From positions 2,852,001-2,916,000 of the forward strand of contig NZ_CP037993.1 in NCBI RefSeq assembly GCF_004367745.1: a stretch of 64,000 nt of DNA. Reading direction: 5' to 3'. A model generated the notes under the pieces. That model had not been told where the DNA came from, searched no databases, and saw nothing but the letters and a program-made list of their open reading frames with translations. Within the stretch, counting starts at the first letter, position 1. The number at the start of each line of letters is the position of its first letter. Positions 38,396 through 41,620 of this stretch are shown one piece after another. The position numbers were made by a program, and so were the translations under genes. This stretch comes from Herbaspirillum huttiense (GTDB lineage Bacteria > Pseudomonadota > Gammaproteobacteria > Burkholderiales > Burkholderiaceae_D).

Positions 38396-38424
38396 TTGTC
38401 GATGAGCTTCAATCTTGCTACTAT
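38396..38424 (+). promoter_or_regulatory. Promoter in front of the fluoride riboswitch
   Basis: TTGTCG (38396-38401) and TACTAT (38419-38424) with 17 bp spacing predict a transcription start at about 38431, which is the first base before the riboswitch stem. The exact fit of the predicted start with the aptamer supports both calls. Confidence 0.7.
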
Positions 38425-38431
38425 CGGGGTC

Positions 38432-38494
38432 AAGGAGATGGCATTCCTCCTTCAACCGCCACCAACGTCCCGTTGGGGCTGATGATGCCTACAG
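38432..38494 (+). promoter_or_regulatory. Fluoride riboswitch aptamer (crcB motif)
   Basis: All parts of the fluoride aptamer are present. Stem one is AAGGAG (38432-38437) with CTCCTT (38447-38452). The loop GGCAT (38440-38444) pairs with ATGCC (38485-38489) as the pseudoknot. The conserved AACCGCC follows at 38454-38460, then stem CCAACG (38462-38467) with CGTTGG (38472-38477), and the conserved GCTGATGATGCCTACA. The gene downstream is a CLC-F type antiporter, the classic target of this riboswitch. Confidence 0.93.
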
Positions 38495-38528
38495 TGACCT
38501 GGCAATCCGGGGCTGTAGGCGTTCGCCT
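38487..38528 (+). promoter_or_regulatory. Candidate expression platform of the fluoride riboswitch
   Basis: GCCTACAG (38487-38494), which includes the 3' strand of the pseudoknot, is perfectly complementary to CTGTAGGC (38513-38520). The two structures exclude each other, so fluoride binding should block this hairpin. A second small hairpin AGGC-GTTC-GCCT (38517-38528) runs into TTCT. The T-run is poor, so it is uncertain whether the platform acts by intrinsic termination, Rho or another way. Confidence 0.6.
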
Positions 38529-38587
38529 TTCTGCTTCGCGCGCGCTGCACCCGGTGTGCCAGGATGTTCATTCAGCACTCTGGTCAC

Positions 38588-39904
38588 ATGAAAAATCATA
38601 AACTCCCCGAACAGCTGCACCTGCTGCCTTACATCGTCAAATGGTGTCTGATCGCCAGCCTGATCGCCGCCCTTGCCGGATCGGCCTCGGCCTTCTTCCT
38701 CTTCGCGCTGGACTACGCCACGCACTGGCGTGAAACCCATCCGTGGATCATCTGGTTGCTGCCGCTGGGCGGTTTTGCGGTCGGCTGGCTGTACCTGAAG
38801 ACCGGCAAGCCGGTGGAAGCCGGCAACAACCTGCTGATCGATGAAATCCACGATCCGAAAAAGGTGATCCCGCTGCGGATGGCGCCGCTGGTGTTGTTCG
38901 GCACCGTGATGTCGCACCTGTTCGGTGCTTCCGTGGGCCGTGAAGGCACGGCCGTGCAGATGGGCGGCGCGCTGGCTGATCAGCTGACCACGGTGCTGCG
39001 TCTGCGCACGGAAGACCGGCGCATTCTCCTGATGGCCGGCATCAGCGCCGGGTTTGCGTCGGTCTTCGGCACGCCGATGGCCGGTGCATTGTTCGGACTG
39101 GAAGTGCTGGCCATCGGCCGCATGCGCTATGACGCCATCCTGCCCTGCTTCGTGGCGGCCATTGCGGCCGATCAGGTCGGGCTGGCCTGGGGCGTGCATC
39201 ACACCCACTACCACATGGGCGGCGTGGTACCGGTCGCGCTGTGGAGCGTGGCGGCGGTGATCGCGGCCGGTGTGGTCTTTGGGCTGGTCGGCATGGTGTT
39301 TGCCAACAGCACGCACCGGCTGTCGGCCTTCATGAAGCGCCACGTCAGCTATGCGCCGCTGCGGCCCTTCATCGGCGGTGCCATCGTTGCGGTAGCCGTG
39401 TGGGCGCTGGGTACGCAACGCTACATCGGTCTCGGCATCCCGGTGATCGTGGAAGCCTTCCAGCAGCCGCTGGCCCCTTGGGATTTCCTGGGCAAGATGG
39501 TGTTCACGGTGACCTCGCTGGGCACCGGTTTCAAGGGCGGCGAAGTCACACCGCTCTTCTATATCGGCGCGACAGTGGGCAATGCGCTGGCACCCCTGCT
39601 GCATCTGCCGTTTTCGATGCTGGCCGGGATCGGCTTCGTGGCGGTCTTTGCGGGCGCGGCCAATACGCCGATTGCCTCCACCATCATGGCCGTCGAACTG
39701 TTCGGGCCGGAGATCGGTCCGTTTGCAGCGCTGGCTTGCGTGGTGGCCTATCTGTTCTCCGGACATACCGGCATCTATCATGCGCAACGCGTGGGACAGG
39801 GGAAGTATCCGTCGCTGCCGGAAGGCTTGAAGATCGGCGAGATTGGCGCCTACAGGGCGCGGCGCCAGGCGGAGCGGGAGCAGGAGAGTATCGGCGAGAA
39901 GTGA
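38588..39904 (+). CDS. clcF: CLC-F type fluoride/proton antiporter
   Basis: A 438-residue CLC protein that should expel fluoride. Canonical CLC motifs are modified as described for the CLC-F clade: GNNLLID (79-85) replaces the chloride-coordinating GSGIP, the gating glutamate is kept in GREGTAVQ (Glu119), and the position of the transporter glutamate is a channel-like valine in LEV (Val173). GFKGGEVTPLF follows. The start at 38588 (MKNHKLPEQ) was taken; an in-frame ATG at 38564 is possible. A fluoride riboswitch lies immediately upstream, which strongly supports fluoride over chloride as substrate. Confidence 0.92.
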   Translation: MKNHKLPEQLHLLPYIVKWCLIASLIAALAGSASAFFLFALDYATHWRETHPWIIWLLPLGGFAVGWLYLKTGKPVEAGNNLLIDEIHDPKKVIPLRMAPLVLFGTVMSHLFGASVGREGTAVQMGGALADQLTTVLRLRTEDRRILLMAGISAGFASVFGTPMAGALFGLEVLAIGRMRYDAILPCFVAAIAADQVGLAWGVHHTHYHMGGVVPVALWSVAAVIAAGVVFGLVGMVFANSTHRLSAFMKRHVSYAPLRPFIGGAIVAVAVWALGTQRYIGLGIPVIVEAFQQPLAPWDFLGKMVFTVTSLGTGFKGGEVTPLFYIGATVGNALAPLLHLPFSMLAGIGFVAVFAGAANTPIASTIMAVELFGPEIGPFAALACVVAYLFSGHTGIYHAQRVGQGKYPSLPEGLKIGEIGAYRARRQAEREQESIGEK

Positions 39905-41079: not shown

Positions 41080-41367
41080 TCAAGCCGGCTTGTGCTGCGC
41101 CAGCCATTCTCGCAAGGCACCGTTCATCCGACTTTGCCAGCCATCCCCCCCGGCCTTGAAGGCCTCAACGATGTCCTGATCAAAGCGCATCGTCACTTGC
41201 ACCTTGCAGCCACTTCCCGCCGGCCTGCCGCGTCCGCGCGCCGGACGCATCGTGGAGAACTGCGCTGCCGTGAGCGGCTGCGCGTCCGGATCCGCCAAAG
41301 CGGCCTTGGTGAGCGCCGCATCTTCGGCGGCAGTAGGTACGATTGTTCCTGGTTTAAGCTTCGGCAT
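41080..41367 (-). CDS. brnA: BrnA-type antitoxin
   Basis: A 95-residue antitoxin. The C-terminal half (VQVTMRFDQDIVEAFKAGGDGWQSRMNGAL, read in two parts) is the DUF4415/BrnA ribbon-helix-helix, which binds DNA and BrnT. The N-terminal ~50 residues are a flexible linker rich in Ala, Arg and Gly. The start at 41367 lies 14 bp inside the end of brnT, the standard toxin-first order of the family. Confidence 0.88.
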   Translation of the reverse strand: MPKLKPGTIVPTAAEDAALTKAALADPDAQPLTAAQFSTMRPARGRGRPAGSGCKVQVTMRFDQDIVEAFKAGGDGWQSRMNGALREWLAQHKPA

Positions 41368-41620
41368 AGTGTTGTATCTCCCTTTTGGTTGCCCTGCGCA
41401 GACTGATGATGCGCAACACTTCATTTCGCTCCACAAAGACCACCACATGGAGCCGCAGACCGATGTAGGCAATCGCGATTTCCCGAACCTCATCATAATC
41501 AAACCTGCGGTCCACGCTGAGCAATGCCGTGTCCCATTCGATGGCCGCCGCTTCTGCGAGTGAAACGCCGTGCTTGTGTCGGTTGACGACGTCTTTTTTC
41601 GGGTCGAATGTAATCTGCAT
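41354..41620 (-). CDS. brnT: BrnT-type ribonuclease toxin
   Basis: An 88-residue RelE-fold toxin. FDPKKDVVNRHKHGVSL near the N-terminus and RIISLRRATKREIQHY at the C-terminus are BrnT signatures. It cleaves RNA and stops growth when BrnA is lost. Together with brnA it forms an autoregulated type II toxin-antitoxin operon; palindromic sites in its promoter are listed separately. Confidence 0.9.
   Translation of the reverse strand: MQITFDPKKDVVNRHKHGVSLAEAAAIEWDTALLSVDRRFDYDEVREIAIAYIGLRLHVVVFVERNEVLRIISLRRATKREIQHYAEA

Follow-up and report, generated by a model that had tools for sequence, protein, structure and literature searches.

A fluoride riboswitch in front of a CLC-F antiporter gene in Herbaspirillum huttiense and its probable control of translation by a three-strand relay

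The window analysed here, 64,000 nucleotides of the Herbaspirillum huttiense genome (contig NZ_CP037993.1, positions 2,852,001 to 2,916,000, forward strand), carries a fluoride riboswitch in front of clcF, a gene of the CLC family, and raises the question of how the aptamer could pass its signal on to the gene. The reading that we consider probable, from covariation and folding models, is that clcF encodes a fluoride-induced exporter and that its translation is controlled by a relay of three RNA strands (b, d and e), without an intrinsic terminator.

The aptamer matched the full RF01734 model (1-64) with 49.5 bits against a gathering score of 34, clearing the cutoff by 15 bits, and only the innermost P3 pair was non-standard in the model alignment. 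At gathering scores this was the single Rfam match of the whole window (38425-38498, plus strand), and no second RF01734 match was found in the 5.69 Mb genome, which is one contig. The first-pass annotation of this DNA had named the covariance model as the check on a fluoride aptamer, and the check came out in its favor. It had also let the aptamer begin at the predicted transcription start. The aptamer elements and the pseudoknot were indeed present, but a consensus scan at its own threshold found no promoter at the aptamer, and the transcription start near 38431-38432 is therefore only a prediction. By eye, TTGTCG (38396-38401) lies 17 nt upstream of a -10-like TACTAT (38419-38424), which seven bases separate from the aptamer core, starting at 38432. 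Such -10-like hexamers precede the aptamers of many relatives, not of all.

38396-38424, plus strand: predicted promoter, TTGTCG, 17 nt spacer and extended -10 TGCTACTAT
38425-38498, plus strand: fluoride riboswitch aptamer, RF01734 (cmscan, 49.5 bits, E 1e-10)
38432-38437/38447-38452, plus strand: aptamer P1, read off the sequence
38440-38444 (GGCAU) with 38485-38489 (AUGCC), plus strand: aptamer pseudoknot, read off the sequence
about 38458-38479, plus strand: aptamer P3

The expression platform that follows, on which the first-pass annotation had been silent, can be divided into five strands, the first of which still belongs to the aptamer.

38495-38587, plus strand: expression platform, the stretch of about 90 nt before the gene
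38484-38494, plus strand: strand a, GATGCCTACAG, including the 3' pseudoknot strand (a:c paired in 95.1% of cells, 46 leaders)
38498-38504, plus strand: strand b, CCTGGCA, loop segment of the a:c hairpin and partner of d
38513-38523, plus strand: strand c, CTGTAGGCGTT, partner of a in the anti-aptamer hairpin
38554-38563, plus strand: strand d, GTGTGCCAGG, alternative partner of b and e
38580-38590, plus strand: strand e, CTGGTCACATG, abuts the start codon and may be masked by d (duplex test, controls, minimum free energy fold)
38588-39904, plus strand: clcF, CLC-F type fluoride/proton antiporter, 438 aa (GNNLLID 79-85, external glutamate, Gluex, E119, V173, second glutamate E319)

Two sets of these pairings are mutually exclusive: a:c with the aptamer pseudoknot, and b:d with d:e. 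None of 200 shuffles folded as well as the leader (38425-38610; z -3.2). The minimum free energy fold of the leader without constraints included both a:c and d:e. Strand c, which ends 64 nt upstream of the clcF start, is directly followed by CGCCTTTCTGC and not by a U-tract. The terminator scan of the window called no intrinsic terminator at the a:c hairpin, and such a terminator was rejected for this leader on both grounds. The duplex with the anti-Shine-Dalgarno sequence upstream of the start is weak (-2.1 kcal/mol), a value that is also the median over 53 leaders, the strongest being -6.2 in L049.

The position of strand e depends on the choice of start codon. An in-frame ATG at 38564 would give a longer reading of 446 aa, the form used for database searches; it was dropped as the start since it is not conserved, in favor of the conserved ATG at 38588. 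For the leaders of relatives, an ATG was accepted 5-11 codons ahead of the EQ-type motif, a rule that gave a start in 53 of 60 leaders, lying 7 codons before the motif in 50 of the 53.

From these pairings the following mechanism may be proposed. In the absence of fluoride, strand a (3' pseudoknot strand plus CCTACAG) would pair with c and lock b in the hairpin loop; strand d, left free, would pair with e and mask the clcF start codon. When fluoride is present, the aptamer would hold strand a, so that the a:c hairpin could not form and b would capture d. Strand e and the start codon would thereby be exposed and clcF translated, and the CLC-F protein would expel fluoride in exchange for protons. 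Control would be exerted mainly on translation and not by an intrinsic terminator.

Covariation among relatives spoke for the first helices of this relay. After removal of 7 duplicates, the 53 leaders with an assigned start were reduced to 46; the 7 of 60 leaders with no assigned start were L031, L037, L061, L070, L073, L080 and L083. For a:c and b:d taken together, 93.0% of the cells were paired in the 46 leaders, and the covariation of 0.177, against 0.108 in shuffles, was reached by none of 500 shuffles, which overstate support as the leaders are related by descent. Six pairs had changed on both sides (as many in 3 of 500 shuffles), and pairing dropped to at most 44.4% when the strands were slid by 1-3 columns. 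The b:d helix alone gave a covariation of 0.328 against 0.164 in whole-segment swaps over the 46 leaders and of 0.431 against 0.179 over 18 cluster representatives, with 0 of 500 swaps as high in either set. Its count of pairs changed on both sides was reached by 21 of 500 swaps, and by 49 of 500 with the representatives.

For d:e the picture was more mixed. In fixed columns, 12 of 500 shuffles reached the paired percentage and 38 the covariation score, while three counting measures were reached by 155, 343 and 383 of the 500. Whole-segment swaps over the 46 leaders reached the paired percentage twice in 500 and the covariation 12 times; with the 18 representatives these numbers rose to 89 and 121 of 500. 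Since lineages differ in the register that d:e keeps to the start codon, the helix was also tested register-free. Over 18 clusters the native duplexes had -11.9 kcal/mol, swapped partners -9.1 (p 1.6e-4) and shuffled ones -7.3, and over 31 leaders native duplexes had -11.7 against -8.9 kcal/mol for swapped ones (p 4.3e-5). In 23 of the 31 leaders the native d:e surpassed the mean of its swaps, and in 26 the native b:D did so. Strand e also paired with d better than did four control segments from within the gene (p 1e-4 to 1.2e-3), whose base composition was not matched.

Ten leaders outside the alignment (from 19 candidates, 7 of which yielded no start) were also compared on their own. Against swapped partners the native d:e had p 0.097, with 6 of the 10 better, and the native b:D p 0.053; against shuffled ones the values were 0.005 and 0.003, respectively. 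One of those outside the alignment, L098, forms eleven consecutive d:e pairs that end beside its ATG. In the set of 31, L102, L031, L073 and L083 were restored, and L037, L061 and L070 were left out as near-copies of L031. L080 is absent from all d:e tests; L101 was in the ten-leader test but, being closely related to the window, was kept out of the 31; L089 and L091, which look alike, were counted apart in the duplex tests. A search for the longest d:e helix was descriptive only and chose other sites in L014, L016, L023, L043, L079, L081 and L082, among others. Judged from these sequence comparisons, b:d appears well supported, and d:e appears supported but less firmly.

The predicted switch was then followed in folding models with Vienna, which leaves out the pseudoknot, magnesium and co-transcriptional order. 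The fluoride-bound state was represented by the full aptamer with P1 set and strand a withheld; P1 was not settable for L058 and L065, neither of them among the 18 clusters. In this state b:d rose in 18 of 18 clusters, which in part follows from removal of its competitor, d:e fell in all 18, and accessibility of the start region increased in 17 of them; counted over all leaders, this region opened in 44 of 53. When strand b was shuffled (15 shuffles per leader), the accessibility change was -0.006, compared to +0.096 for the native strand (p 8e-6, 17 of 18). In the window itself, withholding a raised b:d from 2.7 to 11.5 pairs and lowered d:e from 9.5 to 4.2. Start accessibility increased only from 0.24 to 0.28, compared to 0.15 to 0.58 in the close relative L007, because the masked fold of the window pairs the start region with sequence at and just upstream of b. 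The full-aptamer model was chosen after the results of a truncated-aptamer model had been seen. The truncated model, with P1 not set, gave higher accessibility in 15 of 18 clusters, lower d:e in 17 and higher b:d in 18; the window did not switch, and its a:c hairpin did not prevail (1.0 expected pairs).

The helices could also be read as a transcriptional platform, in which a:c would be a weak or Rho-assisted terminator, b:d its antiterminator and d:e incidental. The a:c hairpin does share a strand with the pseudoknot, like the hairpins of the terminator class described in PMC13273304 (in the part of the article available), and d:e is the least firmly supported of the helices. Moreover, T6 directly follows the hairpin in three Achromobacter leaders (L029, L044, L079) and T5-T6 stands at the same place in L092, L107 and L112, three leaders of crcB-like type in the family, for which reason a:c seems able to serve as a terminator in some leaders. 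In the window, however, the hairpin is followed by CGCCTTTCTGC and no terminator was called. In addition, d is more complementary to the start-codon segment than to segments of the gene or to swapped partners, and a platform with b:d alone would need no coevolution of d with e. We therefore regard transcriptional control as unlikely and keep translational control by the relay as the preferred reading.

Two of these Achromobacter loci, L029 and L044, showed a further arrangement. On the minus strand near 2687-2781, back to back with the clcF riboswitch, a divergent gene for a 540-aa product, MutS-like by eye, has a fluoride aptamer and a T-tract of its own.

The same layout recurs in front of other genes. 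In seven loci (L016, L032, L036, L038, L047, L048 and L051) a second plus-strand aptamer lies about 1 kb upstream of clcF, and the genes behind it are CrcB-like by eye. Six of the seven leaders were read, the coordinates and score of L048 being the same as those of L047. All six had a b:d helix of 7-11 bp and a d:e helix of 7-8 bp; among 500 shuffles, a d:e as good was found 3 times for L016, 9 for L036, 24 for L032, 11 for L038, 4 for L047 and 55 for L051. For the two loci from Herbaspirillum ST 5-3, the masked start is that of the crcB-like frame. The start masked in the four loci from Pseudomonas (L032, L038, L047 and L051, about 1855-2440) belongs to an upstream frame of 26-29 codons, whose stop overlaps the crcB start or lies within 4 nt of it, which suggests that this frame is translationally coupled to crcB. 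The genome of the window has one copy of CrcB, without a fluoride riboswitch. In a wider search at the level of the class, 26 of 369 genomes matched with 29 loci; 24 leaders were tried, of which 9 were unparsed and the others were judged by eye alone.

These leaders also bear on the possibility that, downstream of a genuine riboswitch, the helices merely reflect random matches between strands of a GC-rich leader, with control following another route. The weakness of d:e in fixed columns and the common descent of the leaders, which inflates shuffle-based support, would fit such an origin. Yet b:d carries compensating changes across Herbaspirillum, Pseudomonas and Chromobacteriaceae leaders, its pairing collapses when it is slid, the modelled switch is lost when b is shuffled, and the layout is repeated before crcB-like genes. 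An origin by chance is thus very improbable, and the relay is the reading pursued below.

The riboswitch is present in some relatives and missing in others. Among the best 80 of 249 encoded relatives, 59 had RF01734 directly upstream at gathering score and 21 did not; the closest was Herbaspirillum sp. GW103 with 92% identity. Across the family, 28 of 145 sampled genomes had RF01734 matches. A search of all 21 riboswitch-less relatives with the platform model R1 gave no match at E values up to 1. In a tree of the window with 79 relatives (80 rows, L075 omitted) the riboswitch label changes six times, five of these changes being forced by well-supported branches, and none of the 16 rows in a clade of Duganella, Rugamonas and Massilia-like members (98/91) has the riboswitch. 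Of the 21 riboswitch-less relatives, 14 have an extended -10 (TGYTAnnAT) whose end lies 9-10 nt upstream of the start codon, so that their clcF genes look leaderless or nearly so.

L013, L015, L017, L018, L020, L022, L024-L028, L030, L033 and L052: extended -10 in the about 60 nt before each start

We lean, with somewhat less confidence than for the relay itself, towards a translational relay platform that, in Burkholderiales and Pseudomonas, is conserved in the leaders of clcF and in some of those of crcB. The Duganella/Rugamonas/Massilia clade would have lost it, leaving an apparently leaderless clcF without fluoride control.

Two observations on individual relatives may be added. A Janthinobacterium clcF (L072, about 2860-2900) is preceded by what looks by eye like a broken aptamer remnant, under the Rfam cutoff. 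L011 and L012 carry CLC-F genes 76-79% identical to that of the window on contigs binned as Chlorobi; they group with Herbaspirillum sp. RV1423 in the tree, pointing to horizontal transfer or mis-binned contigs.

The nature of the transported ion was judged from the protein. In CLC proteins the serine of the GSGIP motif coordinates chloride, and a glutamate at the site of Val173 serves as the internal proton glutamate. In the clcF product GNNLLID occupies the GSGIP site, without the serine, and Val173 comes after the helix-F glutamate (GLEV), without the proton glutamate. These are the replacements that the first-pass annotation had taken as marks of CLC-F; both are present, but Val173 alone is not diagnostic, since 3 of the 4 CLC paralogues of the genome also lack a glutamate there. 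More telling is the second glutamate, E319 (GGEVTP), which is missing from all four other CLC proteins of the genome, whereas the external glutamate, E119 (GREG), is common to them. A methionine at the M79 site and an extra glutamate, E318, which is missing from chloride CLCs, are given as features of CLCF in the available part of PMC12035849.

The closest solved structures were 6d0j/6d0k/6d0n, three entries of a CLC-type fluoride/proton antiporter, at 4.5e-64, ahead of the best ClcA (1.6e-11) by about 50 orders of magnitude. The structure 6d0j, presumably from Enterococcus casseliflavus, aligned with residues 29-410 of the longer, 446-aa form, with both glutamates kept. It has a methionine at the position-79 site where the clcF product has an asparagine (Asn80), and GNN occurs in 78 of the 80 relatives (best 80 of 249). 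The asparagine variant reportedly forms a second CLC-F subclade (Brammer 2014). We take it that methionine at position 79 is not demanded of the whole CLC-F family, given this asparagine subclade, and that membership stands. By its sequence, the clcF product is a CLC-F antiporter. The pairing of riboswitch and CLC-F gene put forward by the first-pass annotation was thus borne out, RNA (RF01734, 49.5 bits) and protein both pointing to fluoride as the probable substrate. Its expectation that automatic annotation would say chloride channel was equally correct, for Pfam as for the H. seropedicae paper (PMC7011215, available part); no NCBIfam equivalog scored above its cutoff for the product. A chloride transporter or channel with a fluoride aptamer in front of it by chance, for which the Pfam label Voltage_CLC (voltage-gated chloride channel) might speak, is barely conceivable and was rejected in view of the RF01734 match, the far better match to CLC-F than to ClcA structures, the second glutamate missing in the paralogues and the recurrence of the aptamer-gene pair in 59 of the best 80 relatives.

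Elsewhere in the window, the minus strand at 41354-41620 encodes a BrnT-type ribonuclease toxin and is overlapped by a downstream frame (41080-41502), possibly a BrnT/BrnA pair.

Among known systems, the nearest is the fluoride riboswitch Hsnc002 of H. seropedicae SmR1, reported in 2020 with 50.3 bits upstream of HSERO_RS12335 (PMC7011215). As far as the available part of that article goes, it shares with the window the aptamer family, the gene context and probably the genus, its gene is called a voltage-gated chloride channel and an expression platform is not described. The riboswitch-clcF pair was thus already known, probably from the same genus, and the new part is the relay platform. A description of the relay was not found in the openly licensed literature; older or supplementary accounts could hold one.

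Translational action has been considered for other fluoride riboswitches. The accessible part of PMC8814607 presents translational lux fusions of P. syringae and B. thailandensis riboswitches, with fluoride raising expression in a B. thailandensis host (5.1 fold, up to 25 fold) and little or no induction in E. coli; some fluoride platforms are there presumed to act on translation, without a platform structure in that part. The fusions include P. syringae, and Pseudomonas relatives of the window show the relay helices. A more direct form of masking, by sequestration of the Shine-Dalgarno sequence, might be present in L120 and L142, where by eye strand c itself reads AGGAG beside the ATG, whereas c of the window ends 64 nt upstream; there too the start would be covered as long as fluoride is absent. 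If true, the relay would supply strands that can be tested in the fluoride sensors of Pseudomonas and Burkholderiales, and a natural case for comparing the state before and after a riboswitch was lost.

The better described systems are transcriptional. Terminators overlap many crcB RNAs (PMC2864571, available part), and whole-riboswitch covariation models have been given for terminator-type fluoride riboswitches (PMC13273304, available part). According to the latter source, the transcriptional riboswitches of B. cereus and T. petrophila resemble the window in that the downstream hairpin of the apo state takes the pseudoknot strand. They differ in that this hairpin is an intrinsic terminator with a poly-U tract, whereas the window has none and instead continues with strands d and e toward the start codon. 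A defined translational counterpart to these systems, if true, would explain fluoride leaders without terminators.
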